A stretch of 47,689 nt of DNA from an uncultured Thiodictyon sp. (lineage in GTDB: Bacteria; Pseudomonadota; Gammaproteobacteria; Chromatiales; Chromatiaceae), in NCBI GenBank assembly GCA_903837595.1, contig CAILVI010000327.1:1-47689 (forward strand). The letters run 5' to 3'. Of the stretch, positions 9,001 through 33,090 are shown one piece after another (position 1 is the first letter of the stretch; every line of letters starts with the position of its first letter). The position numbers and the translations under genes are program-made. The notes below the pieces were generated by a model. It worked only from the letters and a program-made list of their open reading frames with translations, made no database searches and was not told where the DNA came from.

Positions 9001-12000
9001 ACCGCCAGCGCGCGGTTCACGCTATCGGCGTCGGCTATGCTGATCCCGCCGATGGCCAGGGGCTGTTCCTCAACCGCAATACGTGCACCCGGCACCGTGA
9101 TGACCGGCGGATCATTGACCGGGATAATCTCGATATTGAAGATGCCGGTCGGCTCCCCACCGCCACTGCCGTCGGACAGGGTAAAATTGAAGGCGTCGGC
9201 CGTCCCCTCCAACCCGTCATGCCGATAACTGACGCGATTATTATTGAGGTCGTCCTGGGTAAAGGCGCTGCCCACCCCGAGGATGGCGCCATTGAGCAGC
9301 AGTTGACCGTACTGCACATCCGTCGTGATACGGAACTGGATCTGTGGATCGGTATTATCCGGGTCGGTCCCCTTAAGGTCCGCCGCGGTAATGATCCGCG
9401 TGTCTCCCTCATAGAGGGCCTTAGCGCCGGTCAGGCCGGTATTGTTCAGAATCACCGGATCGAGGGTGCCCGGCACCACGTTCAGGGTCACGGTCCGCGG
9501 CGTACCGACGCTCAGTTGACCCGGGATGACAACGCCTTTACTGTCATCGGGGGTGAGCTGGAAGCTGTCGTGGAAATTATTGGTGCCGTTCTGAATATAT
9601 CTAAAGTTGCCGGCCGCCAGATCGGCCTGGCTGACGAGCGTCGTGGCCATGTTGGTGGCGTCGATGGTCACCCATTGGGTGCCGTCAAAGCGCTGCAGCG
9701 TACCGTAGGCCGCCAGCGCGGTGACATGAAAACCGAGTTGCACGCTAGTGGATTGGTAAGCCAGGGCGCCGGTCTTGTCGCCGGTGCCATCGACATCGGT
9801 CAGGACGATGGCCAGGTTGCCCGCAGTGTTGAAGACATAGGTCGCACCCAGGCCCATGGTGCCGGCCGCGCTCACACTGGCGGTCGGGGTGTCGTTGACC
9901 GGGGTGGCGTCGATGCTGAAGATCGACTTGGTCAACACAGTGCCGCTGCCGTCGGTCAGCGTGAAGCTGAAGCCGGAAATGAAGTGCTCACTGCCGTCGT
10001 GGGTAAAGGTGATTCTGCCGGCGTCAATGTCGGCCTGGGTGAAGGTGCCGCCGAGGGTGAGTGCTACGCCACTCTTGTACAGCGTCCCATTGCTCGGCAT
10101 GGTCCCGCTAAGGGTAAAACGGCAATCGGCAGCGGGAGCCTGCAGGATGGTATTGGTGATTGTCGCCGCCGTGCCTTCATTCAGCACCAGGGGCAGATTC
10201 TGGCCAAGTGGATTATTAGAACCCACCACATGTACAATTACCGTGCCGGTGGCTGTATGACCATTCGAATCGGTCACGGTGTAGTTGAAGCTGCCATCGC
10301 CGACAAACGCGTTTTCCGGCGTAAAGGTAATCGTGCCGTCGCCGTTAATCGTCGGCAGACCGTGTCCGGTCCCGGCAATGGGAGCCACCGCGGTAATGCT
10401 TAGGGTTCCCACGCCACTATCGTTGCTCAGCAACAGGGAGGGATAAACAGTGACTGCCGTATTCTTGTCGGTATACAACACATCGGCTATGGCAGCAGGG
10501 GGGTTACCGTCACCGCCGACGGTTACGGTACCGCCGCCGTAACCGGTATTGGTATTTCCGTTGCCACCTTGGGCACCCGTGTTCGAGGTCAAGCTGATGT
10601 CGACCTGGACCGGCCGAATGGCACCGCCCGCGTCGTAGACACCACCGGGCCGGTTCAACTGGATGTTGTAGGCGCCATCGCGCACCGTGACGACAAAACT
10701 GTCAGTCCCCGGGGGGCTGTTGAAGTAGTTTTGATAGGTTAGCGCGCCGCTGTTAATGTCGGCCTGGGTGAAGATCGAGCCGGTACCCAGCGGCGTACCA
10801 TTCAGAAGCAGCCAGCCATAGGTGGGCCTGGACTCCAGGCGGTAGGTGATCGTGTCCAATTCAACATCGGTGGCCGACAATTGCGACACGGTAATGGAGG
10901 CGGTATAGACCCCGGCGCCCAGGGTCAGCGTGTTGGGCGTTGCCAACACCGGGTCGTCATTCACGGCGATGACGTCAATGCTGATGGTATTGAGGTTGCC
11001 GGAAATGGCCGACGAGCCGCCTTTGTCCGTCGTCCCGAGTGTCGCGCGCGTCTCGCCGCTGCCATCGCTGACCGAGACGCTGCCGAGATAGGTGTTGTCC
11101 AGCGCGCGCACCGACAGGGCGCCGGGATTGCCGTTATAGTTCAGTACCGGGACAAAGCGGACCAGTGCGCTTGGCGAGAGGACCAAACCGCCGCCGGCAT
11201 CATCGACGGTGCCGATGGCCGCCCAGTGGGTGCCATCAGTAGAATACTGCCAGGTACCCTGGGTCGCCGCGTTGGCGCTGTTACCACCGACAATGGCAAT
11301 GCCCTTGACTGAGGCACCTGGGTCCGTATCCACAAAGCTATAGCCGGAGAAATTGCGAATGGCGGTACCGGTATTGGCGGCGCCCGGGTCCTCGTAGATG
11401 CGGGCACTCAGGTTACCGATGCCGATGGGTGCCGTGTTGGGTATGCCGATCGTCAGATTGATCGTCGTCTTATTGACCAGCCCGCCCGCGCCGTCGCGCA
11501 AGGTCACGCTGAAGGTGTCACTCGACGCCGCGTCGTTGTTGTGGACATACTTCAAGCCGCCGAGTGCGGCATAGTTGAATACAGTGCCGATCCCGACCGC
11601 ATTGCCGTTATAGGTCAGGGTCCCGTGCGTAGGGAGGGGCCCCTCGATGCGGAAAACCAGTTGTTCCGCGGTATTATCCGGGTCAGAGACCTGAATATTG
11701 CTGGTGGAAAAGGTGAGCGAACTCCCCTTCTGGACATTGGCGCTCAGGACCGAAAGGTCCGGGGCGGTCGCGCCAGGAACATACAATACCGGGGTGTCAT
11801 TAACCGGGCTGACCTTGATGGTCAAGCTGCGGTTCGCCGAGGTGCCGGCGGCACCGCCCTCGGCCACGGTGTAAGACAGCGTTTGGTCGGAACCGCTGGG
11901 CTCGGCACCGTTGTGGACATAACGCAGGCGATTGTTATCGATATCGTCCTGGGTAAAGGTCGTGCCAACGCCGACGGTCGTCGCAAAGGTCGCGTCGTGG

Positions 12001-17427: not shown

Positions 17428-18131
17428 GGCTCACCCGCCGGGCCGAGTTGCCCGTCGGCGAGCCGCAGCCGCCGCGTGAAACGGCCCAGCAACCCGCGGT
17501 CGTGGCTGACGACCACCAGCGCCATCCCACGCTCGGCGTGCAGACGCAGCAGCAGTTCAATGGTGGCGGCGGCGCTGACGCTGTCGAGATTCGCCGTCGG
17601 CTCGTCGGCAAGCAGCAGCGCGGGGGCATTGGCGAGCGCGCGGGCGATGCCGACGCGGCGCCGCTCACCACCCGACAACTCGGCCGGCCGCCGGGCGGCG
17701 CAGTCGGCCACGCCGACCTCGGCCAAGCGCTCCCGGGCACGCCGGCGGCGCTGCGCGGTGCCCGGCACCTGTCCGAACATCGCCAACTCAACGTTCTCCA
17801 CCGCGGTCAGGGTCGGCACCAGTGCATAGTCCTGGAACACGATACCGATGCGCGCCGCGCGCAGCCGGGTCCAGGCCGCGGCATCCGGCACGTCCTGGCC
17901 GTCGAAGCGCACGCGGCCGCACGACGGGCGGTCGAGCCCGGCCATCAGCCCGAGCAGGGTGGTCTTGCCGCCGCCGCTCGGCCCCTCGATCGCCAGCCCC
18001 TCGCCGGGGGCCAGCTCCAGGCTGACGTCGCGCAGCACCACGATGTGACCGCCATCGAAGCTGTGCCCGACACACTCCAGGGTGAGCAGGGGTGGGCAGC
18101 GCGGCACGGCGCGGCCGGAGGGCGTGTTCAT
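17424..18131 (-). CDS. ABC transporter ATP-binding protein, LolD/MacB type
   Basis: A 235-residue nucleotide-binding subunit. It has Walker A GPSGGGKTT (about residues 54-62), a Q-loop (VFQDYALVP), the signature LSGGERRRVGIARAL, Walker B with DEPTANLD, and the switch His in VVVSHD. The length, the LSGGE and DEPTANLD forms and the FtsX-type permease partner place it in the LolD/MacB/FtsE group. Its ATG overlaps the end of the MlaC-like gene by four bases, and its own stop overlaps the permease start by four bases, so the three genes form one coupled unit. The substrate cannot be read from this subunit. Confidence 0.93.
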   Translation of the reverse strand: MNTPSGRAVPRCPPLLTLECVGHSFDGGHIVVLRDVSLELAPGEGLAIEGPSGGGKTTLLGLMAGLDRPSCGRVRFDGQDVPDAAAWTRLRAARIGIVFQDYALVPTLTAVENVELAMFGQVPGTAQRRRRARERLAEVGVADCAARRPAELSGGERRRVGIARALANAPALLLADEPTANLDSVSAAATIELLLRLHAERGMALVVVSHDRGLLGRFTRRLRLADGQLGPAGEP

Positions 18132-18880: not shown

Positions 18881-21238
18881 TTACGGGCAACTGCCTGACG
18901 CGTCATCACCCCCATCCCCCAGCGCGCGCGCAAACGCGTCCAGATCGAAGTTGTAGGCCCAGGTTGCCAGCACGGCATGCAGCGGCGGGTCCTGGTCGCG
19001 GACCCGCTCCGCCAGAGCGGTGATCAGCGTGAAATCACCCAGTTTCAAGGCGGCTTGCAACTCGCTGCGCCACCCGCTGGGGCAGGCGGCCAGGCGGGCC
19101 ACCACCGTGGCGCCAGCGAGCGCGCACAGCGGCTCCCGAGGGTCCGCGCGATCGTCCACGATCAGAACGCGGCAGACCGGTTGGCCCGGCGCCAGACGCA
19201 GGACCGGGCGCACGGTCTGATCGGAAGCCGGTGCGGCCGTGTCGAGCGGCGGCAGCGCCAGGGTGAACGAGAAGCGGCTGCCCGCGCCGGGCGTGCTGTC
19301 CGCCGTCAGTTCACCACCCATGAGTCGGACGAACTGGCGGCACAGGGCCAGACCGAGGCCGGTGCCCTCCTGCACCGCACGGCCGCTGGCGGTCTGGGTA
19401 AAGGGCTCGAAGAGCCTCGCCATTTCGTCCGCTGCGATGCCCATCCCGGTGTCCGTGACGTCAAACCGGACGTCAGCCCCGTCGCTGGCCGCGACCCGGA
19501 GTGTCACCGCACCCTGAGGGGTGAATTTCACCGCGTTACCGACCAAGTTGATCAGTACCTGCCGCAGTTTCATCGCATCACCGGACACCAGCCGCGGCAG
19601 CCCAGCCGCGTGGACGCTCAGGACGAGTCCGCCATCGCGCGCACGCTGCCGGAACAATGACGCCACGTCGTCGATCAGCCGCGGCAGGTCGAAAGGTGCG
19701 GTCTGGGAGGTCATCCGCCCCGCCTCGATCTTGGCCAGGTCGAGGACGCCGTTGATGAGTGTGAGCAGGTGCTCGCCGCTGCGTTTGATGGTCGCCAAAC
19801 CGTCGCGCTGCGACGCAGTGGCGGCGGGATCGCGCTCCAGCACCTGGCTGAACCCCAGGATCGCGTTCAGCGGGGTGCGGATTTCGTGGCTCATGTTGGC
19901 CAGGAAGATCGATTTGGCGCGGTTGGCCGCTTCCGCCCGCTCTTTGGCGAGGCGAAAGCGCGACTCGCTCGCGGCCAGTTGCACGGCATGTTGCTCGGCT
20001 AGGTCCCGCGCCTGTTTCAACTCGGACGTCCGCTCCAGGACACGCTGCTCCAGCCGGGTGCGCTCCTGCGCCAGGGCACCGAGCGCGCTATTGCGCTGGC
20101 GCATGACCGTGATCAGTACCGCGATCAGGATCGTCTCCAGCGCCAGGACGATGAGCGTGGCAGTGATCTCCCAACGGTAGATGTCCCACACCGATGCGGG
20201 ACGATTGATGACGACACTCCCGCGCGGCAGAGCCGTATGCGCAATACCAAACCGCTGCATCACCCGATAGTCAAAGATATCGCTGGCCGGGGAGGTCATG
20301 ACGACCGGCAGGTCGGCGACCGGCGTCCCGCCGAGGATACGCAGCGCGAGGCTCCCCGCCGCCCGCCCCTGGTCGGCACCGGTCAGGATATGCCCACCCA
20401 GCACACCGGTGGCGAGATGAAAGTTCCAGAAGGTATAGACCGGAAAGGGGCTGGCGGACGCAATCAGGCGCCCGTTCTCCTCCGGTGTCAGGGCACGACC
20501 CTCGCCCTGATCCCGGGTCTGACCGGCCAGAAAGACGACAGTCGCGCGTGGGAGTGGCACCAGGCCGGCGCGAATTTCGGCCAGTGAGGCGTCCTTCAGG
20601 GTCACCAGGTCAAAGCGGCCACGGTAGCGGGGCGCGACTTCCGCGTCGGCGATCTCGGCGATGCGCTTACTGCTGGCGTCTCCGGTGGAGGTGATGAAAA
20701 CCAGGGTGCGGGTCGCGGGCTGCACCCGCAGCGCGAGATCGACGGTCGCGCTCATGTCGGTCTCCTCATTGACCCCCGTGACATCGGCGCTGCCGCGCAG
20801 CACCGCCGGGCGGAAATTGTTATAACCGCAGAACACGATGGGGCGGCCGGGGAACAGCCGTTGCCGCTGACTGAGGGCGAAATCGAAGGCCGCGTTGTCG
20901 GAGACGATGACCAGGTCTGGCCGATAGGCGTGGTACTTGGCGGCCATGGCAGTGGCCAGCGCGTCGGTGATGGCTGGGTCAGTAAAGCGGCGACTGTCGA
21001 GGTATTCAACCGACAGCTCGATGGCCCGGTCCGGGTCCGCCAGCCGTTCCCGCAGCCCCAGCTCCACATCATCGCTCCAGGAGTAGCCACGATGGTAAGA
21101 GTTGATATAAAGGACGCGGGCCGTCCGCTCGCTGGCGGTCGCGGCACTCGCCCCGACGGCGAAGCAAGACGCCAGCATGATCGTCATGAACAGGCAATAC
21201 CCACGACGGGGAATGGCGTGCCGCTCGGCCACCCTCAC
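18881..21238 (-). CDS. Sensor histidine kinase with fused ABC-type substrate-binding domain and a collapsed receiver domain
   Basis: 785 residues from a GTG at 21238, which has GAGG seven bases upstream. An N-terminal signal or anchor (to about residue 35) is followed by an ABC substrate-binding-like sensor ([17 protein letters not shown], about residues 40-330), a transmembrane helix (about 345-370), a coiled coil, HisKA ([15 protein letters not shown]), and HATPase ([15 protein letters not shown]). Its paralogues then have a full receiver. Here only the first strand remains ([16 protein letters not shown]), and it is joined directly to the common C-terminal tail ([14 protein letters not shown] ... 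[10 protein letters not shown]). The phosphoacceptor Asp and the rest of the receiver, about 115-120 residues, are absent, with no frameshift. The protein probably still autophosphorylates but must pass phosphate to another protein. Confidence 0.92.
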
Positions 21239-21300: not shown

Positions 21301-21630
21301 TCAGAACCGGGGCCGAATACCGAGCCCGGCCAGGACCGAGTCGGTGTCGGAGAGATCGCCGATGACGCGGCGCACCGGCAGGGGCCAGCGGCGGATCAAG
21401 GTCGGGTTCGCCATAATCTGGTACTGCTCGGCGCGGTCCGGGCTTTCCAGCACGTCGATGACCTCGACCCGATAGCGTCCATGAAGCCTGTCATCGCAGA
21501 GCTTCTTGAGGTTTATGACGGCGTCCAACGAGCGTGCCGTATGCCCCAGTATATAGAGCTGCAAATCCCAGAACTCGCCTGGGTCGTCGCCACACCCGGC
21601 GACCTCTTCGCGCAGACCATTGACTGCCAT
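21301..21630 (-). CDS. KaiB-family protein (thioredoxin-like fold)
   Basis: 109 residues, close to the usual KaiB length of about 100. The pattern is clear: LQLYILGHTARSLDAVINLK at the first strand and helix, YRVEVIDVLESPDRAEQY, then NPTLIRRWPLPVRRVIGDLS and VLAGLGI at the end, matching the KaiB ATPTLVRxLPxPxRRxIGDLS block. GAGG lies five bases before the ATG. In cyanobacteria KaiB binds KaiC and changes fold to time the clock; the sensor domain of the kinase SasA is related. There is no kaiC or kaiA in this window. The gene sits between two hybrid-kinase genes, 62 bases before one and 118 after the other, so it may act on those kinases. That role is inference; the family call is firm. Confidence 0.92.
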   Translation of the reverse strand: MAVNGLREEVAGCGDDPGEFWDLQLYILGHTARSLDAVINLKKLCDDRLHGRYRVEVIDVLESPDRAEQYQIMANPTLIRRWPLPVRRVIGDLSDTDSVLAGLGIRPRF

Positions 21631-21748
21631 GGTTTCCTCTGCTGGATGATGCGAGTCTCACGCCCGCTCAAACGCGGGGCCGGGTGCGCTGATACTGTTC
21701 GGCAAGCAAGCCGATACCCACTATCAATGAGGGGCAAAAAGCTCCGCG

Positions 21749-23531
21749 TCAGTCCTCCAAGACCCCGGGCTTGGGTAGACCGGGCCTGAGGTCGATATCC
21801 AACGCACGCCCCAGTGCTGCCAGGGTTTCCTGGGCGCAGTCCCACTCGAAACCGTCGATCTGGTGCTCCAATTGGGCCACCAGGGGGGACCAGGCGCCGG
21901 CTCCCAGTGTAACCTTAAGACCGGCGAGGCACGGCGCGGCCGTCATGTCACAGTGACGCAGCAGCGTCGCCAGTTGACGCAGGACCGGCCCGAGGCGACC
22001 GGGGCTCAAGACCTTGGGGGCGTCCGCCACGGGTGCGGACGGCAGCCGGGCCAGCCCGGCCAGGACCGGCGTCAGGGCGGACTCCAAGGCCTCCAGGCGG
22101 GTGGGTATAAGGTCCCGCGCCTCCCGCTTCAGCACCTCCTCCAGCGCCGCCGCGGCGCGCGTCACCGCGGCCATCGCCCGGGCGATGCCGCCAATGTCCG
22201 CGACGGCGCCGGACCCGAGGGCTCCCGCGTTGGGGTCGAGCAGTTCGGTCAGGGTAGCGATCAGGGTTGGTTCATTGACTGGTTTGATGAGAACGCCGTC
22301 GACCCGGGCGTCCCCGGCCAAGGTCATGGCATCTTCCCGGTCATGGGCCGTAACCATGACGACGACCGGGGTCTGCGCCAGCCGGCTGTCGGCCTTGAGC
22401 CACCCGGCCAACTCGATGCCGTCCAGGCCCGGCACCCGCCAATCGGTGAGGACCAGATCGAAGGGGGTGTCACGCGCGGCCGCCGCGGCCAGCACGTGCC
22501 GGGCCGCCGTGCTGGAGGGCACCGCCACGGCGGCTACATCATGGGCGCCGAGCATGGCGGTCAAGGCCTTGCGGATCGCCTGGTCGGCGACCACCACCAG
22601 CACCCAGGTGCCGGCCAGCGGCCTTAGTCCCAGGCGCACCGCCGGGCCGTCCACCGCAGCGATCCCCAAGGGCACGGTGAGGGTCACGGTACTACCCCGC
22701 GCGGGCGCGGTCTCCAACTCGACCCCCCCCCCCCATCAGCTGCGCCAGCTGCCGGCAGATGGCCAGCCCCAGACCGGTCCCGCCGTAAGGGCGGGTGAGC
22801 GAGCCGTCGGCCTGGGAGAAGGCCTGGAACAGCTGCTCAACCTGTTCCGGAACCATGCCGATGCCGGTATCACTGACCGCGAGCCGCAACCGCACCGTCC
22901 CCGCCGCCACCACGGCCGGCGCCACGCGCACGACGATCTCACCTTGCTCGGTAAATTTCACCGCATTGGCGGTCAGTTTCATGAGAATCTGGCCCAGTCG
23001 CAGGGCGTCTCCCACCAGGAAGCGGGGCGTCTGCGGGGCCACGCAGACGCGAAAGGCCAGACCTTTCTGTTCGGCCTTCAGCGCCATGACATCGGTGAGA
23101 TCCGCCAGCAGCGCATCCAGTGAAAAGGGTGCCGGTTCCAGTGCCAGGGTGCCGGCCTCGATCCGCGAGAAGTCCAGGATGTCGTTGATGATGCCCAGCA
23201 GCGCACGGGAGGCGGCGTCGATCCTGGCCAGATAGTCTCGCTGTTTGGCGCTCAGTTCGGTGCGCAGGGTGAGGTAGGTCATCCCCATGATCGCATTCAT
23301 AGGGGTGCGGATCTCATGGCTCATGTTGGCGATAAACTCGCCCTTGGCGCGATTGGCAACCTCGGCCTGCTCCTTGGCGATGGCCAATGCGTCCTGGAGT
23401 TGCTGGCGTTGCGTTCGCAAGCGTTGCTCGGCCGCCCGCCACCGTTGGTCATGGCGCCGATTCAACCACAGCACCGCACCAGCGGCCCCCATCAGCAAGC
23501 ACAGCAATTGCAGAACCATCATGCTACCCAC
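21749..23531 (-). pseudogene. Hybrid histidine kinase (TM-HisKA-HATPase-REC) frameshifted at a 12-G tract
   Basis: Two reading frames together make one kinase. The first (23531-22692) has a transmembrane helix (about residues 4-22), HisKA ([14 protein letters not shown]), and HATPase with DTGIGM and GTGLGLAI, and runs into [10 protein letters not shown] before leaving frame. The second continues from [20 protein letters not shown], has a receiver (VLTDWRVPGLDG, phosphoacceptor Asp; one acidic residue of the usual pair is replaced, VVVADQ) and a C-terminal helical domain ending near DGFEWDCAQETLAALGRAL. With 11 instead of 12 G the protein would be about 590 residues. It may start at the GTG (23531) or at the paired ATGs at 23522/23519. 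It may be a switched-off phase-variable gene, a true pseudogene or a read error. Its core differs from the four other kinases in the region. Confidence 0.82.
22723..22734. repeat. Homopolymer of 12 C (12 G on the coding strand)
   Basis: The tract lies in the Gly-Gly stretch after the last HATPase motif of the frameshifted kinase. Eleven G would restore the frame ([12 protein letters not shown]). The other kinases in the region have no G run at the same place. Confidence 0.95.
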
Positions 23532-23559: not shown

Positions 23560-25818
23560 TCAGCGCATCGGCTGATCCCACCCGTCGGCCAGGCCGATCA
23601 GGGCCACGAAGGCATCCAGATCAAAATTGTACGCCCAGGCCGCAAGCGCCGTGTGCAGCACCGCATCAGCGTCGCCGAGCTGCGCCGCCAGGGCGCCGAT
23701 GCGACCGAAATCGCCCAGCATGACCGCTTCACTGAGACTTGCGCGCCATTCTGCGGGCAGCGCGATCAAGCGGGATGCCATTTCTTCTGCGGACACCGCA
23801 ACCGCGGCTGCCGGGGTGTCCCCGGCGCGAATGAACCGCAAACCGGCCCGGTGCTCCAGGATCGCGAACAATTCTTCGGCGCGCCACGGTTTGCCGGCGA
23901 AGTCGTCGCAACCGCAGGAGAGGAAGCGGTCGCGGTGTTCATTGAAGGCACTGGCGGTGAGCGCCACGATGATGGTGCCCACCGCCCCGGGACGGACCGC
24001 CATGCGCGCCCTGATCTCCCGGGTCGCCTCCTCTCCCGACATGACCGGCATTCGCATATCCATGAAGACGACGTGCGGTTGCCAGTCTTCCCAGAGTGCC
24101 ACGGCCTCCCGGCCGTCGGCCGCCTCCCGCAACGCAAGCACCGGCGGTTGCGGATTGAGCCCCTCCAGCAACGAGCGCAGCGGCGCCCGGTTGTCCGCCA
24201 GGTCGTCCACGATGAGAATCCGGCAAACCGGTTGGCCCGGCACCAGGCCAACCACCGGGAGTTCGGTAGCCTCGGCCTTTGGTGCGACGGCATCGGTCGC
24301 CGGGAGTGACAGGGTGAAGGAGAAGCAACTCCCCTGCCCGAGCCGGCTTTCCGCGATCAGTTCCCCGCCCATGAGCTGCACAAACCGGCTGCTCAGCGCC
24401 AGGCCGAGGCCGGTCCCGCCCCGCACTTGCCGGCCGCTGGCGGTCTGACTGAAGGGCTCGAACAGCCGCGCCATCTCGTGCGGAGCAATCCCCATCCCCG
24501 TATCGATAACGCTGAAGGCAATCGCGTCATCCCCAGCCGGCGCCACCCGAATCATCACCGACCCGGAGGCGGTGAACTTGACTGCATTGCCGATCAGGTT
24601 GATGAGGACTTGGCGCAATTTCACCTCATCGCCTGACACCATCCGGGGCAGGGCCGACAGCTCCTCGCCCAGAGCGAGCCCCCGCTCACGGGCGCGTTGC
24701 CGGAAAAATGCCTGCACCTCCGTCACCAGCGCGATGAGATTAAAAGGGGCGACTCTAACGGTCATCCGGCCGGCCTCGATCTTGGCCATGTCGAGGATGT
24801 CGTTGATGAGGGTCAGCAGGTGTTCGCCGCTGCGCTGGATGGTGGTCAGGCTGTCGCGCTGGGTGGCATTCAGGCCGGGATCACGGCCCAGCACCTGGGC
24901 AAAGCCGAGAATGGCGTTCAACGGAGTGCGAATCTCGTGGCTCATGTTGGCCAGGAATTCGCTCTTGGCCTGGCTGGCCGCGGCGAGCTGGGCGGTGCGC
25001 TCCGCCACTTTCTGCTCCAAGCTGGCGTTGAGCTCGCGCACCGCCTGCTCCGCCTGTTTGCGCAAGGTGATATCGCGTGCCGCGGCGAACACGCCGGCGA
25101 TCTCACCCGCGTCATCGCGATAAACGCTGGCGTTGTAGAGGACGTCGGTCACATGGCCATCGGCATGACGGATCGCCAGCGGATAATCGGTGACATAGCC
25201 TTCCGAGAAAACCTGACGGTAGCCAGCGGCAGCCCGCTCCGGCTCCGTGAAATAGTCGGAAACATCGCTGCCGATCAACTGCTCACGGGGACGACCGGTG
25301 ACCGTTTCGGTCGCGGCGTTGACATCCATGATCCGCCCATCGGGACTGATCGTCACCAACGGATCGAGGCTGGCCTCGATCAGCCGCCGGGAGTAATTCG
25401 ACAACGCGCGCAACTCGTTCTCGGCCCGCTTGCGCAGGGTGATATCGCGCGCCGCGGCGAATACGCCGGCGATCTCACCCGCATCATCCCGATAGACGCT
25501 GGCGTTGTAGAGCACGTCGGTGACATGGCCATCGGCATGACGGATCGCCAGCGGATAATCGGTCACATAGCCTTCCGAGAAGACCTGCCGGTAGCCGGCT
25601 GCGGCCTGCTCCGGCTCCGTAAAGTAGTCCGAAAAATCGCTGCCGATCAGCTGTTCACGGGGACGACCGGTGACCTTTTCGGTCGCGGCGTTGACATCCA
25701 TGATCCGCCCATCAACACTGATGGTGACCAGGGGGTCCAGGCTGGCCTCGATCAGCCGCCGCGAGTAATTCGATAAGCTGCGCAGTTCGTGCTCCAGATC
25801 AGTCGTGTTAACGGTCAC
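23560..25818 (-). CDS. Cytoplasmic PAS-PAS hybrid histidine kinase
   Basis: About 752 residues with no transmembrane segment. Two PAS domains (about residues 10-130 and 134-254) are almost the same, each running from SNYSRRLIEASLDPLVTIS to GVFAAARDITLRK. A short coiled coil follows, then HisKA ([19 protein letters not shown]), HATPase ([15 protein letters not shown]), a receiver (RILIVDD; phosphoacceptor in [13 protein letters not shown]; Lys in FAGKPW) and the C-terminal tail (LPAEWRASLSEAVMLGDFGR ... [10 protein letters not shown]). The open frame starts at a GTG (25824), but GGAG lies only two bases before it and eight bases before a second GTG (25818), which I prefer. It starts about 20 bases after the preceding kinase stop. 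Its input is an internal or membrane-permeable signal; no haem or flavin residue can be singled out. Confidence 0.9.
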   Translation of the reverse strand: MTVNTTDLEHELRSLSNYSRRLIEASLDPLVTISVDGRIMDVNAATEKVTGRPREQLIGSDFSDYFTEPEQAAAGYRQVFSEGYVTDYPLAIRHADGHVTDVLYNASVYRDDAGEIAGVFAAARDITLRKRAENELRALSNYSRRLIEASLDPLVTISPDGRIMDVNAATETVTGRPREQLIGSDVSDYFTEPERAAAGYRQVFSEGYVTDYPLAIRHADGHVTDVLYNASVYRDDAGEIAGVFAAARDITLRKQAEQAVRELNASLEQKVAERTAQLAAASQAKSEFLANMSHEIRTPLNAILGFAQVLGRDPGLNATQRDSLTTIQRSGEHLLTLINDILDMAKIEAGRMTVRVAPFNLIALVTEVQAFFRQRARERGLALGEELSALPRMVSGDEVKLRQVLINLIGNAVKFTASGSVMIRVAPAGDDAIAFSVIDTGMGIAPHEMARLFEPFSQTASGRQVRGGTGLGLALSSRFVQLMGGELIAESRLGQGSCFSFTLSLPATDAVAPKAEATELPVVGLVPGQPVCRILIVDDLADNRAPLRSLLEGLNPQPPVLALREAADGREAVALWEDWQPHVVFMDMRMPVMSGEEATREIRARMAVRPGAVGTIIVALTASAFNEHRDRFLSCGCDDFAGKPWRAEELFAILEHRAGLRFIRAGDTPAAAVAVSAEEMASRLIALPAEWRASLSEAVMLGDFGRIGALAAQLGDADAVLHTALAAWAYNFDLDAFVALIGLADGWDQPMR
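25061..25790 (-). repeat. Tandem duplication of a PAS domain, period 372 bp
   Basis: Sequence around 25061-25430 is repeated at 25433-25790 with high base identity. For example, the reading starting at 25381 recurs at 25753, exactly 372 bases (124 codons) away. Coding differences are few (SVDGR/SPDGR, SDFSDY/SDVSDY, EPEQAA/EPERAA). This is a recent in-frame duplication. Confidence 0.93.
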
Positions 25819-25839
25819 TGCCACTGCTCCAGATAACTA

Positions 25840-28725
25840 TCATGACGTCAACCCGTGCTCCGACGTGCCCGCGACGTTGCGCTGGAGCAGAGAGACAAAG
25901 GCCTCCACATCGTAATTGTAGGCCCACTGCTCCAGTGCCGCGCGAAGGGCCGCGTCACCGTCACCGAGCTGTTCCACGAGCGCGGTGATCCGACCACAAT
26001 CACCCAGATCGACCGCGTCACTTAGGGCGGTACGCCATTGCTCAGGACGGGCGGCCAAACGGCCGGCCAGTTCATCCGCAGAGAGAGACAGACGGGGCGG
26101 CGGCACTGCTGCGGCACGGACGAACCGCAGCCCGGCGCGGCGCGCCAAAAGATCGAACAGCGCGTCGGCCAGGAACGGTTTACAAACGCATTCGTCACAA
26201 CCACAGGCCAGAAAATCGTCGCGATTTTCATCGAATGCGCTGGCGGTGAGCGCCACCACCAGTGAGCGCACCGTCGCGGGCCGGGCCGCCATCTGCGCCT
26301 TGATCCGGCGGGTCGCATCCTGCCCTGACATCACCGGCATCCGCATGTCCATGAGCACGACATGGGGCTGCCAGACCTCCCAGAGCGCGACCGCCTCCCG
26401 ACCGTCGGCCGCCTCGCGGACTTCAAGCACCGGCGGCTGCGGATTAACCCGCTCCAGCAGCGCCCGCAGCGGCGCCCGGTTGTCCGGCAAGTCATCGACG
26501 ATGAGGACCCGGCACACCGGCTGCCCGGGCTCCAGGGCGACCGTGGGAAAGACGCCCCGATCGGTCTGCGGCGCACCCGCGGTCACTGACGGTAGTGGTA
26601 GGGTAAAGGAGAAGCAACTGCCCTCGCCCGGCGTACTCTGTGCAGTCAATACGCCGCCCATGAGCCGGACAAACTGGTGGCTCAAGGCCAGGCCGAGACC
26701 GGTTCCACCCGCCACCGCCCGACCACTGAGGGTCTGACTGAACGGCTTGAAGAGCCGGGCCATCTCCGCCGGGCTGATCCCTACGCCGGTGTCACTGACG
26801 CTGAACCGGATCGCCGCTGCGGCAAACGGCTCGACCCGCAGCGCCACGCGCCCGGCTAAGGTGAACTTGACTGCATTGCCGACCAGATTGATGAGGACCT
26901 GCCGCAATTTCATCTCGTCCCCCGCTACCGTCCGCGGAAGTCCCGACGCCTCAACGCTCAGGGCCAGCCCCCGGTCGCACGCGGGCTTGCCGAAAAACGC
27001 CTCGGTCTCGGCGATCAAGCGATGAAGATCAAAGGGGGACTCCGCAAGCGTCATCCGCCCGGCCTCGATCTTGGACATGTCGAGGATGTCGTTGATGAGG
27101 GTCAGCAGATGCTCGCCGCTGCGCGCAATCGTGGTCAGGCTGTTACGCTGGGCGCCCTTCAGGTCGGGGTCGCGCGCCAGGACCTGGGTGAAGCCGAGAA
27201 TGGCGTTCATGGGGGTGCGAATCTCGTGGCTCATATTGGCCAGGAACATCGATTTGGCCCGATTGGCGGCCTCGGCCGCCTCCTTGGCCGCAGCGAGTTT
27301 CTCTTCCGCTTGTTTGCGCTCGGTGAGGTCCCGGGTGACGCCGCGCACCTCGACCTGGCCGGTCCGCTCATTGCGGCAATAGGTGGTGATGACTTCAGTC
27401 CAAACCGTGGTCCCGTCTTTGCGCGGTTGCTCGACCTCGTCGATATAGAAATGGTCAGCCGCTTGCTGACCGGACAAGAGCGCCGCGGCGCGGTCGCGCA
27501 GGAGCGCCTTAAGACTATCGGCCGCCGCCGGAGTCAAGGCCGCGTCCACCGGCTCGGCCATGACTTCTTCCGGGGTAAAGCCCCGCAGCCCTGTCACTGA
27601 TGGGCTACAATAGAGGAAACGCATGGTGGCGATATCGAGCGCCCAGACCACGTCCTTCATGCTTTCGGTGAGCAGGCGATATTTCTGCTCGCTCTCCCGC
27701 AGTGATTGTTCGCGTTGGGCAATGGCTTGTGCCATCGAGCGAAAGCGATTGTGGATACTGATCAATTCCGCGAAGCGGACGTTCTGGTCATCGTCTTGCC
27801 CCGGCCATCGGCCCTGTTCGAGGTCACCCATTTTTTCGGCGAAGGCGGCCATGGGTTGCATGACCAGTCGGTTCAGTCGACGATTCTTGACGACCACCAG
27901 GAGGATCAGGCCGCCCAGAAAGGCGCCCATGAAGATCAGCAGCGCGTTACGCTGGGTATCCAGCAGCTCGGTAGGGATGAGGATGGCGATTTTGGCCCCG
28001 ATCGTGTCGACTGCGACAATCATCGGTATCCAGCGCCGGTTTCCCGCTGACAGGGTGCTGCCACTGTTGGGTGTCTCCTCCCAGTACTTGAGATCGAGCG
28101 TTGGAATGTGCAGTGTGGGGTCGCCGGAGAGCATCACGAACCCGTCTTTCGCCACCAGCATCAATGGCGTCCCGGAGAAGCGTGAAAACTGCGTCAGGAA
28201 ATTCTGAACATAGGACAGGTCCAGACGCCCCAGGTACAGTATGCCAGCTGAGCGGATGGCGAAATAGACGCTGGGCGCATCGTTTTCGTGACCACGCATG
28301 ATTTCGGACAGGTCGTTGCGTTGGCCGACCGATGTCAGATAGCCGCCCAGTTTCCCCCCCGAAAAGGCATAGCCGACAAACACCTTGCTGCCCGGCGCGG
28401 CCTTATAGATACGCTGCACACGAAGCTCCGGGTCAAGCCGGTAAATGTCCGAAAAGGCTGAAAAGAGACTCAACACGGCCGGCGTGCATTCGGCCTCGGG
28501 CAGGTCAGCGAACGCCGCAAGACTGGCGCGTGCGGCATCCAGGTGGCTGGCCAAGAAGAGATGGACCCGGGCCGCGTCGGCCCGGCGCAGGTCCAGATAT
28601 TTCCCGTTCATCCCGGAGAGGGTGAACCAGACGGCCACGAACAGGATAGCGGTCGTCAGTGTCAGTGACGCAATCTCCAGAAAGAGGGTGTAATGCCAAA
28701 AGGTGGTCCGGCGCAACCAGGTCAT
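25840..28725 (-). CDS. Membrane hybrid histidine kinase: Cache-like sensor, HAMP, PAS, HisKA, HATPase, REC
   Basis: 961 residues. Two transmembrane helices (about 12-35 and 280-302) flank a periplasmic domain of about 245 residues that looks like a double Cache sensor. A HAMP-like linker (about 303-355), a PAS domain with PAC (about 365-490; RFLYCSPSVTGLRGFTPEEV), a coiled coil, HisKA ([19 protein letters not shown]), HATPase ([19 protein letters not shown]), a receiver (CRVLIVDD; Asp in [13 protein letters not shown]; Lys in CVCKPF) and the tail ending WAYNYDVEAFVSLL follow. Its ATG overlaps the stop codon of the binding-protein gene by four bases (ATGA). This tight coupling suggests that the binding protein delivers the ligand to this kinase's periplasmic domain; that is an inference. 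Confidence 0.92.
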   Translation of the reverse strand: MTWLRRTTFWHYTLFLEIASLTLTTAILFVAVWFTLSGMNGKYLDLRRADAARVHLFLASHLDAARASLAAFADLPEAECTPAVLSLFSAFSDIYRLDPELRVQRIYKAAPGSKVFVGYAFSGGKLGGYLTSVGQRNDLSEIMRGHENDAPSVYFAIRSAGILYLGRLDLSYVQNFLTQFSRFSGTPLMLVAKDGFVMLSGDPTLHIPTLDLKYWEETPNSGSTLSAGNRRWIPMIVAVDTIGAKIAILIPTELLDTQRNALLIFMGAFLGGLILLVVVKNRRLNRLVMQPMAAFAEKMGDLEQGRWPGQDDDQNVRFAELISIHNRFRSMAQAIAQREQSLRESEQKYRLLTESMKDVVWALDIATMRFLYCSPSVTGLRGFTPEEVMAEPVDAALTPAAADSLKALLRDRAAALLSGQQAADHFYIDEVEQPRKDGTTVWTEVITTYCRNERTGQVEVRGVTRDLTERKQAEEKLAAAKEAAEAANRAKSMFLANMSHEIRTPMNAILGFTQVLARDPDLKGAQRNSLTTIARSGEHLLTLINDILDMSKIEAGRMTLAESPFDLHRLIAETEAFFGKPACDRGLALSVEASGLPRTVAGDEMKLRQVLINLVGNAVKFTLAGRVALRVEPFAAAAIRFSVSDTGVGISPAEMARLFKPFSQTLSGRAVAGGTGLGLALSHQFVRLMGGVLTAQSTPGEGSCFSFTLPLPSVTAGAPQTDRGVFPTVALEPGQPVCRVLIVDDLPDNRAPLRALLERVNPQPPVLEVREAADGREAVALWEVWQPHVVLMDMRMPVMSGQDATRRIKAQMAARPATVRSLVVALTASAFDENRDDFLACGCDECVCKPFLADALFDLLARRAGLRFVRAAAVPPPRLSLSADELAGRLAARPEQWRTALSDAVDLGDCGRITALVEQLGDGDAALRAALEQWAYNYDVEAFVSLLQRNVAGTSEHGLTS

Positions 28726-29813
28726 TGGAGTTCTTGCTTGAGATCCTGAATAAAATAAAAGGTCCGAGAGACATCGCCGTTGGGGTCAAAGGCGATGGGC
28801 CCCAGACTGGTCTGGTAGATCGGCAGCGACAGCAGGTAGTGTTTGACTTGCGCGGGTGTGTCATACCCCCTGCTGAAGGATTGGTCAAGCAGTTCGAGTG
28901 CCTGCCATACCCCAATGGTCATGGCGTGTGGTTGATAGCCAAAGCGGGCATGGAATCGCCGGAAATAGGCGTCAATCGCCGGGGCGTCGCGGCGTGCCGG
29001 ATATTGGCTGGGGAGGATGATCCGGTCGATGGCGGGGCCGGCGGTTTCAAGAATGGCCGGGGAGCGCGCCCAAGGCGTCAGGAGGATGGGAGCGGCGGGA
29101 TGGAGATGGTGAAAAAGCTGGGCGATGTTACCGATGGCGGCCTGAAAGCTGCCGGCCAGGATATAGAGCGCGTCGTACGGCTCTGCCATGATGGAATGGA
29201 ACTCATCGGGATTGAAGTTGGCGACCATCAGCGGCCGATGGACGATCTGCCACTGGCCCCGGGACTGCAGCTCGGCAGAAAACGCCTGGAACGCCGGATC
29301 GGTGTAGGGCAGATTGCCTTCGTCCTGCAACACCAGGATGCGGGTGCCGGGCAGCTGATCGACATAGCGGGCAATGGCACGCTGCTCCTGCGGCGCATCA
29401 GCCACAATGCGCAGGAAGTAGTCGTCCTTACCCGTCAGCGCCGGGCTGGTTGACGCGGTATTGATGAGGAGCGCGCGGGAGTCCGCGAACAGCTGGATGC
29501 TCGCCACCGCGCACTTGGACGGGTGGGTGGAGACGAAAAAGCGCACCCCTTCCCCCATGGCCGCGGCAATGGCAGGAACGGTCTTGTCTGCCTGCCACTG
29601 GTCGTCCACGGGTCGCACTCGGATGCGGCTGAGCGGATGCTCCTCCAGGAAGAGATCGGCGGCATTCATTTCGCTGGAACCGACCACCGCGGCGGAGGCC
29701 AGCCAGGCGACCACCCCCACCGGGATGGGCGGTGGCAGACGCCACTGCCGCCACAGCAGCAGAGACGCGGCCAGGATGGCCAATAGCGCCGACCACAGCG
29801 CAATCTTTTTCAT
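28722..29813 (-). CDS. Periplasmic binding protein of the branched-chain amino acid type (Peripla_BP_6-like), membrane-anchored
   Basis: 363 residues from the ATG at 29813, preceded by GGGA about nine bases upstream. The open frame runs 34 codons further, into the previous gene, and those residues look spurious. The N-terminus MKKIALWSALLAILAASLLL is a signal anchor with no clear cleavage site. The rest has the two-lobed type I binding-protein pattern (PVGVVAWLASAAVVGSSEMN; FVSTHPSKCAVASIQLFADS; DYFLRIVADAPQEQRAIARY; ILVLQDEGNLPYTDPAFQAF; PIAFDPNGDVSRTFYFIQDL). No permease or ATPase is near. It starts four bases after one hybrid kinase and overlaps the next by four bases, so it is more likely a sensory ligand-binding subunit than part of a transporter. 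The ligand cannot be told. Confidence 0.88.
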   Translation of the reverse strand: MKKIALWSALLAILAASLLLWRQWRLPPPIPVGVVAWLASAAVVGSSEMNAADLFLEEHPLSRIRVRPVDDQWQADKTVPAIAAAMGEGVRFFVSTHPSKCAVASIQLFADSRALLINTASTSPALTGKDDYFLRIVADAPQEQRAIARYVDQLPGTRILVLQDEGNLPYTDPAFQAFSAELQSRGQWQIVHRPLMVANFNPDEFHSIMAEPYDALYILAGSFQAAIGNIAQLFHHLHPAAPILLTPWARSPAILETAGPAIDRIILPSQYPARRDAPAIDAYFRRFHARFGYQPHAMTIGVWQALELLDQSFSRGYDTPAQVKHYLLSLPIYQTSLGPIAFDPNGDVSRTFYFIQDLKQELQ

Positions 29814-29817
29814 GTTC

Positions 29818-32800
29818 TTATCCCGCCCCAGCCAATGCCCTTGAAAATACATCCAGGTCATAATTGTAGGCCGACCGTGCCAGCACCGCGTAAAGCGCGG
29901 CGTCGGTATCGGCAAGGGGCTCCAGCAGGGCGGTGATGCGGCCGAAGTCGCCCAACTCCACCGCGCGAGTCAGATCGGCTCGCCACGCGGCGGGGCAGGC
30001 AGCCAGGCGCACTGCCGCATCTTGCAGGGACAACCAGGCATCGCCGCTCGGCCGTCCACCGGCGCGGACGAACGCAAGAGCGGCGCGGCGCTCCAGGATG
30101 GCAAACAGCTCCTCGGCCAGAAAGGGCTTGCGGGCGAATTCGTCGCAACCGCAGGCCAGAAAGCGTTCGCGGTGCTCGTCGAAGGCGCTGGCGCTGAGCG
30201 CCACGATGATGGTCTGCACCGCGCCGGGCCGCGCCGCGATGAGCGCCTTGATCTGGCGGGTCGCTTCCTCGCCCGACATGACCGGCATGCGCATGTCCAT
30301 GAAGACGACGTGTGGCTGCCACGCCTCCCACACCGCCACCGCCTCGCGGCCGTCGGCCGCCTCGCGGACCTCCAGCACCGGCGGTTGCGGGTTCAGCCCG
30401 GTGAGCAGCGCCCGCAACGGCTCCCGATTGTTTGGAATGTCATCGGCGATCAGGACCCGGCAGGGCGGCTGCCCCGGCGCCAGACCGACCACCGGGAGTT
30501 GCAGCTGGACCTCGACCGGCGCGTCGTCGCCACCTGCCGGGCGCAGCGGGATGGTGAATGAAAAGCAACTTCCCTCACCGACGGCACTTTCCGCAGTCAG
30601 GGTCCCACCCATCAACCGGGCATATTGGGTACAGAGCGCCAGGCCGAGCCCGGTACCACCCGGCACCTGCCGGCCGCGCTCCGTCTGGCTGAAGGGTATG
30701 AAGAGCCGCGCCAGCTCCTCCGGGGCGATCCCCATCCCGGTGTCCGCGACGCTGAAGCGGATGCCCGCCCCGGCGGCGGCCTCCACCCGCAGCACCACTG
30801 CCCCGGCCGCGGTGAACTTGACCGCGTTGCCCACTAGATTGATGAGGACTTGGCGCAGGCGCAGCTTGTCTCCGGCGACCAACCGCGGAATCGGCGACTG
30901 CTCGACGGTCAGCGCCAGTCCGCGGTCGCGGGCGCGCTGCCGGAAAAAGGCCTCCGTTTCGGTGATCAGCTGGTGTAGATCGAAGGGGGCGACCTGGCAG
31001 GTCATGCGTCCGGCCTCAATCTTGGCCATATCGAGGATCTCGTTGATGAGGGTCAGGAGGTGCTCTCCGCTGCGCTGGATGGTGGCCAGGCCATCGCGCT
31101 GGGGAACCTTCAGATCGGTGTCGCGGGCCAACACTTGGGCAAAGCCGAGGATGGCATTCAGTGGGGTGCGGATTTCATGGCTCATGTTGGCCAAGAAAAT
31201 CGACTTGGCCCGATTGGCCGCCTCCGCCTGCTCCTTGGCGCCAATCAACGCGGCCGCCCCCTGCTGCTGTTCGGTCAAGGCGCGCACCAACGCGATGTTG
31301 CTGTGGCTCAACCGGGAAATCATCTGCGCGAACTGCATATAAAAGTGCATCACCAGGGTCACTTTTTCCCGGCTCCAGCGGGGCACCCGATCATAGGCAT
31401 CCAGATAGGCAGCTTCGTCAAAACCATAGCGGCGTGCCTGCTCCCGGAAGGCTTCCCGATCCGGCACTTCATCATCGAAAAAGAACTGGCCGAGGAATAG
31501 ATTACCGACATGCCGTCCCGCCACCATGATCGGCGTGACCACGTCCAACATGCCGTTCTTACAGCGGTAGGTGCGAAAGCTGCCAGGCGCCACCCCGCGC
31601 GAAAGAAGCGTATCGCTTTCCAGGCAGTTACGACAGGTTTGCGGATGGACGCGATGGAACTTTGTGCAGATCTCCTGCCAGCCGGTAGCCACCAGGACCC
31701 GGCCATTGAGATCCAACAAGGCGACCGCGAGATTGGTGAGCCGGAAGAAATTTTCCATCACCTGCTGCATTTCACTGCAGTCAATGATGTCGGCGAGATC
31801 CAGCACCTCCAGGTTTCCGCTCGGCGTGAGCAGCGCGTCCAGCTTGGCGCGGACGCGCCCTTCGCTGTCGGCCAGTTCGCGCGTGCGGCTTGCCAGTGCC
31901 CGGTTCGCCCGCCCGGCCTCAGCCAAGGCGGCGGTGATTCGCAGGTGATTGTGTGCGAGGGCGAATGCGATGAATGCCAGCGCCAAGGTCAAGAGGGTGC
32001 CGGCAGCCATGACCGTGCGGCTGTTTTCGGCTCCATGCTCACTGCTCAGATACGCCGGCAGGGCCGTGACCTGCATGGTCCAGTCGGCGCCCATAAAGCT
32101 GATCCGGCGCACGCTTTCGAGATGACCGGACGTGGTGCCGGTGGGCGACTGTGAGGCATAGAGCAAGGTATCAGGGGCACGGGATTCATGGGCATAGATC
32201 GCGAGCCCCAGTCGCTTGATCAGCTCACTGTATTCGGTACCCAGAGACGCGTCTACCACATCCTGGACGCGCAGCGCCGCATAGACCCAGCCGCGCAGCG
32301 CCGCGCGTCGGTCGCCGACGCTCGCGAGCGGGAGATCGGTGCGATACACCGGCACGAAGATGAGGACCCCTGCCTGCACGCCCTGGTCGGTTTCCTGTTT
32401 GAGCGTCAACCGGCCGGACATGACCGCCTGGTTGTCGTCGCGCGCGCGTGCCGCAGCCGCAGAGCGTACCGGCTCGGTGAACAGGTCGAAACCGATGGCC
32501 CGCTGGTTACGCCAGTCAACGGGCTCCACATAAATGACAGCCGAGTAGGGATCGCGCTCACCCGGCGGCCTGATGTCGTAGTCGGGGAATCCCTGGGCGC
32601 GCATGGCGGTGACATGACGCGCCTTCTGCGCGCTCGGCACCAGGGCGGCGTAACCGATCGCCTGGATCCCGGGATAAAACTCGGGGAGCCGCAAGCGCTC
32701 GACATAGCGATGAAACGCGTCACGACTGACCTCCTCGCCGCCCATGAAGAGCCCGGCCACCCCGCGCAGGATCTGCGCGTTGGCCGTGATCCGGTGCTGG

Positions 32801-32979
32801 AGGCCGCTGACCAACTCGGCTACGCGCAGTTCGAACTCCGAGCGCTCCATCGCGCTCTCGCGACTGCGGATCTGTGCCGCCAGCAGCCAGGTCAGGACCA
32901 GACCGCCGGCCAGGATCAGCCAGGGCAGCACGTGAAAAATGCGGCGCACGGAGCCCGGATCGGTATCATTAGTCGGCAT
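29818..32979 (-). CDS. CHASE-PocR hybrid histidine kinase
   Basis: About 1,053 residues from the ATG at 32979; an upstream in-frame GTG at 33024 has no ribosome binding site. A transmembrane helix (about 15-35) is followed by a periplasmic CHASE domain (about 80-290; [20 protein letters not shown] and [20 protein letters not shown]) and a second helix (about 320-345). A PocR-type ligand-binding domain (about 395-560) comes next, with [29 protein letters not shown] and [14 protein letters not shown]. Then come HisKA ([19 protein letters not shown]), HATPase ([15 protein letters not shown]), a receiver (CRVLIADD; Asp in [13 protein letters not shown]; Lys in FARKPF) and the common tail. CHASE senses small molecules outside the cell; PocR domains bind small hydrocarbon-type ligands inside. 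It is the first gene of the co-directional kinase run. Confidence 0.92.
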
Positions 32980-33090
32980 TGGCCACACCCACCGCGTTCG
33001 GACAGATCTGAATCCCACGCCCACGATGGGTTAGAATATGACAAACGAGCACACAATGAATCATGCTGGAACACCCACCCGGGGCTGGTC

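Follow-up and report, generated by a model that had tools for sequence, protein, structure and literature searches.

An orphan kaiB gene, unlinked to kaiC, adjoins the gene of a sensorless hybrid histidine kinase (HK) in an uncultured Thiodictyon sp. The window analysed, 47,689 nucleotides long, is the whole of contig C327 of this 7.79-Mb genome (G000). The comparisons below suggest, short of proof, that the orphan kaiB serves the kinase rather than the clock. Tentatively, and with less than even confidence, we favour the reading that its product no longer takes part in the KaiC clock and that kaiB and the kinase gene make up a two-gene module, in which KaiB would be the fold-switching ligand of the kinase.

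The output of KaiB/KaiC timers outside cyanobacteria is described as open, SasA homologues there being reported without a KaiB-like domain (PMC5520375). What KaiB does in bacteria that have more than one copy is likewise described as not yet fully understood (PMC10808063). A KaiB linked to a kinase instead of KaiC would uncouple fold switching from the clock. The pair would also offer a small two-protein system in which the effect of KaiB on the kinase is directly measurable. The features discussed are collected in Table 1.

Table 1. The orphan kaiB gene, its partner kinase, the surrounding array and kaiC-less gene groups of other genomes (positions are those of the window unless a locus is given)
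Feature	Position	Strand	Basis
Kinase downstream of kaiB: ABC_sub_bind-like sensor, HisKA, HATPase; receiver mostly deleted	18881-21238	(-)	Pfam
Orphan kaiB, 109 aa	21301-21630	(-)	PF07689 match; orthologue L014:10001-10354
Kinase-kaiB spacer, 118 nt	21631-21748	(-)	Same length in L014, 104/118 nt identical
Partner kinase, 3' part: receiver and tail, other frame	21749-22717	(-)	Pfam; 277/322 residues identical to L014
Partner kinase, 5' part: hydrophobic N-terminal stretch (putative membrane anchor), HisKA, HATPase_c	22692-23531	(-)	Pfam, sequence
12-G homopolymer at the frame break within HATPase_c	22723-22734	(-)	Sequence comparison with L014
PAS-PAS hybrid kinase	23560-25824	(-)	Pfam
PAS hybrid kinase	25840-28725	(-)	Pfam; N-terminal part also in G002, G005, G007 arrays
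Periplasmic binding protein (Peripla_BP_6)	28722-29915	(-)	Pfam; orthologues in G001, G002, G005, G007
CHASE-PocR hybrid kinase	29818-33024	(-)	Pfam
Receiver-GGDEF gene, approximate start	33043-33984	(+)	86% match to L085:3271-4206, which holds REC and GGDEF
PAS-GGDEF protein (diguanylate cyclase)	34036-35946	(-)	Pfam
HK-receiver-KaiB groups	L078 4480-7879; L079 6116-9926; L059 6175-8559; L081 1-3799; L082 2394-9116

Sequence features of the orphan KaiB

The initial annotation recognised a KaiB-family protein in the window, and profile searches bear this out. The protein matches PF07689 over residues 25-104 (83.8 bits against a gathering cut-off of 27; E 7.2e-24) and carries a KaiB-type GDLSD signature. 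Among solved structures, its closest relative by sequence is 8fwj_M (E 7.4e-23); chain M of 8FWJ is the R. sphaeroides KaiB complexed with KaiC (PMC10076222).

An orthologue is present in a second uncultured Thiodictyon sp. genome (G001), at locus L014, which is the same contig as G001:C270. The two proteins are identical at 97 of 109 residues, differ by 12 amino-acid changes, and are encoded by intact ORFs in both genomes. Between the two genes, dN is 0.057 and dS 0.221 by NG86, and 0.050 and 0.272 by YN00, giving a dN/dS of 0.18-0.26. This constraint is comparable with that of two other kaiB genes of the same genomes, both on contig C506 (NG86 dN/dS values 0.052/0.426 and 0.067/0.201), and the clock kaiB of contig C471 is far more constrained (0.008/0.216).

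The orphan KaiB shares 49.5-51.8% identity over 83-101 residues with its three paralogues in the genome. It was placed in a tree of 57 KaiB domains and two references. The domains come from the window genome and 142 relatives, four of them from three genomes of the same class and the rest from the genus or family. For 43 of them kaiC is visible at the locus and for 14 it is not; among the latter, the L058 locus is truncated at a contig end. L014, which duplicates L085, was excluded, and a 35-residue match on G002:C123 (L086) gave no KaiB match. The orphan KaiB and its G001 orthologue form a 100/100 clade whose stem is 0.92 changes per column long, the wider placement not being resolved with so few columns. 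The paralogue identities and this long-stemmed clade rule out a recent stray duplicate. Judged by its sequence, the orphan kaiB is an old, constrained paralogue.

The three fold-switch prolines (P76, P83, and P85) are all kept. Their isomerisation is reported to limit fold switching in R. sphaeroides KaiB, and 474 of 487 KaiBs are reported to carry them (PMC11551320). Of 40 columns with at least 70% conservation among the kaiC-linked KaiBs, five deviate in the orphan KaiB, as in many kaiC-linked KaiBs, and six in the L014 orthologue. Both orthologues carry Gly at position 104, the equivalent of D91 in T. elongatus. Among the kaiC-linked KaiBs of relatives, 42 of 43 have a residue there (35 D, 3 E, 2 N, 1 Q, and 1 G), a count that includes many near-identical rows from one genus. 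The 12 other kaiC-unlinked KaiBs are mixed, with Gly in L080, L081, and L082_2394, Ala in L079_9606, Thr in L059_6175, Asp in L058 (at the contig edge) and L068, Glu in L059_9627, Gln in L078, and a gap in three.

The residue at S. elongatus D90 is described as joining lateral KaiB-KaiB contacts on the KaiC ring, and a D90G change as severely impairing the S. elongatus rhythm (PMC6769508). In a G89A/D91R KaiB, the switched state is reported to predominate (PMC8059507). With the prolines kept and Gly at position 104, the orphan KaiB should still be able to switch folds and should have lost one contact used on the KaiC ring. Its ring interface also has Asp at 36 and Ile at 39 and lacks the cyanobacterial basic residues. 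These losses are weak evidence because other kaiC-linked KaiBs, including that of R. sphaeroides, lack the basic residues too.

AlphaFold, run on two alignment rows, gave a best model with a mean pLDDT of 60.5 and four others at 41.9-48.4. The best, low-confidence model has a C-terminal helix at residues 93-102, as in the switched fold; model confidence is too low to tell which KaiB fold is favoured. A Foldseek search with the model returned 220 matches, none with E <=0.001, and no KaiB was among the best 50 of the 220. The helix and Gly104 would fit a KaiB that is locked in, or biased to, the thioredoxin-like fold and has a stress or redox role involving neither KaiC nor the kinase. A precedent for such a protein is the KaiB of Legionella, which was crystallised in its switched form (PMC10808063). 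We hold this role to be improbable, as the model confidence is low, no CxxC motif is seen when the sequence is read by eye, and the orphan KaiB keeps all three switch prolines.

kai genes elsewhere in the genome

The genome carries four kaiB genes: two on C506, one on C471, and one on C327. As two kaiB/kaiC operons lie elsewhere, the C327 copy is a fourth, orphan kaiB. The C506 operon (L012) has the order kaiC-kaiB-kaiB-PAS-GGDEF-EAL. On C471 (L013), the order is PAS-GGDEF-EAL, a 365-aa gene, kaiB, and kaiC. None of the seven PF06745 (KaiC/RecA-like) matches of the genome falls on the 47.7 kb of C327, and two-domain kaiC is found only on C471 and C506. The initial annotation was right that no kaiC lies nearby, but the look elsewhere in the genome that it proposed turns up two kaiC genes. 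It had also reasoned that a complete operon elsewhere, with this copy as a stray duplicate, would speak against its reading. Such operons exist, but the orphan copy is not that kind of duplicate.

The 365-aa gene (L013 3272-4369, G000:C471) adjoins kaiB-kaiC. Members of its family have an N-terminal receiver, with a Response_reg match at E up to 1 in all 12 members aligned (best E 8.2e-19; only 0.005 for the window genome's own member), followed by a conserved C-terminal part. Receiver proteins with a conserved C-terminal part adjoin kaiB-kaiC in many loci of the phylum-wide sample too. The family resembles Synechocystis KaiA3 in layout and position (PMC11372060). No KaiA is among the best 60 of 210 solved chains matched by the family profile. 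By its likeness in layout and position, the host may carry a KaiA3-KaiB3-KaiC3 clock.

The partner kinase and the surrounding array

The kinase gene is followed by the spacer and then by kaiB; kinase and kaiB are separate ORFs with a stop between them. The spacer contains no promoter-like or terminator-like site in a scan, and RNA structure across it gives no signal (z 0.42 and 1.03). In L014, the kinase orthologue is intact and comprises 599 aa (L014:8083-9882), with a hydrophobic N-terminus, HisKA, HATPase, receiver, and tail. Pfam finds no sensor domain and no GAF domain in it. The best profile matches of the partner kinase are BarA and TorS. Its receiver keeps the phospho-acceptor Asp and, by eye, has Ala at one of the two acidic pocket residues. 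The NG86 dN/dS pairs of its two parts, 0.084/0.240 and 0.072/0.194, make the kinase less constrained than kaiB.

In the window, the kinase ORF is split at a run of 12 G, where L014 has a mixed 11-base stretch. G/C tracts of at least 11 are rare, with only six in the 7.79-Mb genome including this one. The 12-G tract could be a slippage tract, a fixed mutation, or an assembly error. The other five long tracts lie in varied surroundings, and one of them (13 G, L167) is placed shortly before a possible ATG.

The initial annotation placed the kaiB gene in a co-directional run of five hybrid kinases. Five kinase genes do run in one direction, but one is split into two ORFs and the one downstream of kaiB lacks most of its receiver, so that three of the five are intact hybrids. 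The downstream kinase keeps a WAYNFD tail despite its receiver loss. In the second genome, its relative (L014:4956-8072) has a complete receiver and, unlike the window copy, includes a PAS domain. The WAYN(F/Y)D tail proposed as a mark of these kinases is present in three of the five; the CHASE-PocR kinase has SAYNYD, and the kinase beside kaiB has a different tail. The two c-di-GMP synthases of the annotation correspond to two GGDEF genes at the upstream end of the run.

Conservation of the pair and of the array

The kinase and the orphan kaiB occur together in G000 and G001, in the same order and with a spacer of the same length. No orthologue of the orphan kaiB was found beyond these two among 142 genomes searched. 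Nor was a kinase orthologue found beyond them among 93 genomes searched, with 14 candidates scored in most, on the assumption that an orthologue would rank among the best candidates in the part of the matches listed. Thus, kaiB is kept beside the kinase, as the annotation would have it, in two of the eight genus genomes; neither gene was found in the other six, and in none was one of them found alone.

The array is more widespread. Its binding protein occurs in five of the eight genus genomes, with orthologues 70-83% identical in G001, G002, G005, and G007 and distant or no matches in G003, G004, and G006. G002 and G007 keep the window's relative order of the genes for the receiver-GGDEF protein, the CHASE-PocR kinase, the binding protein, and the sensor kinase. 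Other kinases lie between or after them, and the sensorless kinase and kaiB are absent from the array. In G005, array genes without kaiB continue until the contig ends inside the array. The KaiBs of these three genomes are at most 54% identical to the orphan KaiB. On these gene orders, the array is older than the kinase-kaiB pair. A KaiB that serves the whole array is rejected, since array genes are kept without kaiB in G002, G007, and, up to the contig end, G005. The annotation's idea of a switch for these kinases therefore fails for the array and is mildly supported for one kinase, with which kaiB is paired in two of two genomes.

Across the block formed by kinase, spacer, and kaiB, the window and L014 share 84-96% identity per 100-nt step, and the three other array genes compared are 75-84% identical at the nucleotide level. 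The surroundings of the block differ. The L014 relative of the kinase that follows kaiB in the window sits upstream of the pair. After kaiB and before ETF genes, L014 has a 267-nt segment (10478-10744) that is 88% identical to the ABC-transporter ATPase gene of the window (17736-18002). As the flanks differ on both sides, the pair has stayed together through rearrangement. Its co-occurrence is probably one gain, seen in two genomes. The 267-nt remnant looks like the trace of a deletion beside the pair. A 180-aa gene after kaiB in L014 was considered and rejected, as it has no Pfam family and its ORF overlies this remnant.

The split kinase, the receiver loss in the neighbouring kinase, and the failure to find such a kaiB in six of eight genus genomes are compatible with a passenger gene. 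A once useful kaiB would have arrived in the array with the kinase and would now be decaying, along with its split kinase, in the window strain. Such decay has a low probability in our estimate, for the kaiB ORF is intact in both genomes with 12 changes in 109 aa and a dN/dS of 0.18-0.26, and the KaiB signature and prolines are unbroken.

KaiB without KaiC in other genomes

The class-wide and phylum-wide samples comprise one best KaiB locus per genome, with about 1.5 kb on each side and 29 loci each. In the phylum-wide sample (398 genomes, 38 with KaiB), kaiC lies within about 1.5 kb in 29 of 29 loci. The class-wide sample (369 genomes, 33 with KaiB) gives 22 of 25, after L104, L111, L114, and L115 (4 of 29) were dropped for want of a KaiB match with the references. 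The three class loci without KaiC (L091, L105, and L109) contain GGDEF and no kinase match. KaiBs without kaiC are commoner among the relatives (142 genomes, 27 with KaiB), where they account for 14 of the 57 domains, each from a genome of the window's family. Domain labels were assigned by phmmer with references from the window genome, so very diverged KaiC could be missed in these counts.

That KaiB so rarely parts from KaiC in the class-wide and phylum-wide samples favours a second explanation, namely that the orphan KaiB is still a clock KaiB, binding the KaiC of C471 or C506 in trans and competing with the cognate KaiBs. Its place near the kinase would then be chance, or would couple kaiB expression to the kinase. 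The two KaiC genes of the genome and the ordinary number of deviations (five of 40 conserved positions) agree with this explanation. R. sphaeroides KaiB is reported to bind KaiC in ADP (PMC10076222). Gly104 and the 0.92 stem branch speak against a clock role, as do NCBIfam scores that miss both equivalog cut-offs for clock KaiB (75.4 against 110 for NF006798 and 72.3 against 145.3 for TIGR02654). However, the first C506 KaiB also falls below both (107.2/99.5), and the C471 KaiB passes the first only (111.7/106.4). On balance, we regard binding to KaiC in trans as a serious but somewhat unlikely explanation.

Some kaiC-less KaiBs of the family also lie beside kinases. L068 has the order kaiB-PAS-HK-REC without kaiC, and its kaiB groups with the second kaiB of kaiC-kaiB-kaiB-PAS-HK-REC operons. 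In five family genomes, genes for an HK, a stand-alone receiver, and a KaiB stand side by side with no kaiC in view (Table 1). Between L078 and L079, the receivers are 70% identical over 120 residues, and the kinases 52% over about 470 C-terminal residues. No two-domain KaiC match is present in the L078 genome (G026, 99% complete), where the four PF06745 matches reach at most 40 bits singly (64 for the best whole frame), in frames of 352-536 aa. G023, G030, and G082 have KaiC elsewhere in the genome, and G053 is 81% complete. These groups may constitute a KaiC-independent KaiB signalling system.

In L012, L045-L053, and L067, the gene after kaiC-kaiB(-kaiB) alternates between PAS-GGDEF-EAL and PAS-HK(-REC). 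This alternation suggests a c-di-GMP or a phosphorelay output of one kind of Kai operon. A plasmid protein search with the orphan KaiB gave 18 records, all below 60% identity. Among five plasmid records (H1, H6, H14, H15, and H18), kaiC lies beside kaiB in four. The fifth, H14, is Hymenobacter sp. GOD-10R plasmid unnamed3, with a lone KaiB-family gene (L171 5980-6273). A response regulator gene and a gene with a PAS domain lie about 5 kb away, and no kaiC is annotated in the 12-kb stretch examined.

A possible mechanism

The simplest reading of a kaiB that is under constraint, lies apart from kaiC, and accompanies a single sensorless kinase is that its product provides the input of this kinase. 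KaiB would be the soluble input of a putatively membrane-anchored enzyme and would toggle between its ground state and a thioredoxin-like state. In the latter state it would dock on the kinase, probably on the receiver, as switched KaiB does on the CikA receiver. Docked KaiB would then raise or lower the phosphotransfer of the kinase. We infer the binding, the docking site, the direction of the effect, and the fold switching itself.

The observations counted for a kinase ligand are the domain identity, the constraint, the prolines, Gly104, a pair held through rearrangement, no kaiC in cis, and array genes without kaiB in G002, G005, and G007. The precedent of the CikA receiver and the recurrence of kaiC-less KaiB beside kinases add to them. 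Counted against it are the split kinase in the window, with which the pair may not work there if the split is real and fixed, the occurrence in two genomes only, a kinase less constrained than kaiB, and two KaiCs as potential partners. In addition, the receiver keeps its Asp, unlike CikA, and L068, L059_9627, and L078 keep Asp, Glu, and Gln at position 104.

A wider and more doubtful proposal is that KaiB was recruited in purple sulfur bacteria on more than one occasion as a fold-switching ligand that acts on two-component systems without KaiC. One case would be the pair with the sensorless hybrid kinase; the HK-receiver-KaiB groups, one of them in a nearly complete genome lacking a two-domain KaiC match, would be separate. 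If true, the KaiB-receiver contact of CikA would be a general signalling mode and not a cyanobacterial clock input.

Comparison with known systems

KaiB-TV-4 of T. elongatus vestitus and the Legionella KaiB are extra copies that stand apart from the studied clock, possibly with a shifted fold balance (PMC10808063). The orphan KaiB resembles them in this respect. It differs in being kept beside one kinase in two genomes.

Fold-switched KaiB is reported to bind the (pseudo-)receiver of CikA through the second strand of KaiB (PMC6378743). The pair resembles CikA in having a histidine kinase followed by a receiver domain, with KaiB as a potential ligand (PMC6378743). Unlike in CikA, the window receiver keeps the phospho-acceptor Asp, and no GAF domain was found.

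SasA likewise couples a KaiB fold to a histidine kinase. In the window, KaiB is encoded by a separate gene, set off by a stop and the spacer rather than fused N-terminally, and bears the GDLSD signature. The initial annotation proposed a detached SasA-like sensory subunit, for which no evidence of SasA kinship was found. The NCBIfam model PRK09303/NF006800, which is listed only as 'histidine kinase' and which we take to be SasA, has no match in the orphan KaiB at E 0.001. PRK09303 is not among the best 25 of the 103 families matched by the partner kinase, which is closest to the BarA and TorS models.

The kaiC-kaiB-PAS/histidine kinase operons of R. palustris and R. sphaeroides, in which a free kaiB lies directly beside a kinase gene, are described in PMC4794148. 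Plasmid pB of R. sphaeroides 2.4.1 has the order kaiC-kaiB-HWE kinase, and the relatives L048, L050, L051, L053, and L067 have kaiC-kaiB-(kaiB)-PAS-HK(-REC) operons. The window shares with these operons a free kaiB adjoining a histidine kinase gene. In contrast to them, it has no kaiC in cis, L014/L085 giving no KaiC match either, and its kinase is sensorless and lies upstream of kaiB. The partner kinase is only 27-39% identical to the kinases of these five loci and of L068. A SasA-type or kai-operon kinase is rejected on this identity and on the best 25 of the 103 models matched. A search of titles and abstract openings in the open-access literature found no kaiC-less KaiB-kinase pair and no recurrent HK-receiver-KaiB groups, which does not prove that none is in print. 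The search suggests that, although a KaiB gene beside a kinase is already known from the kaiC-kaiB-HK operons, the kaiC-less KaiB-kinase module is new.
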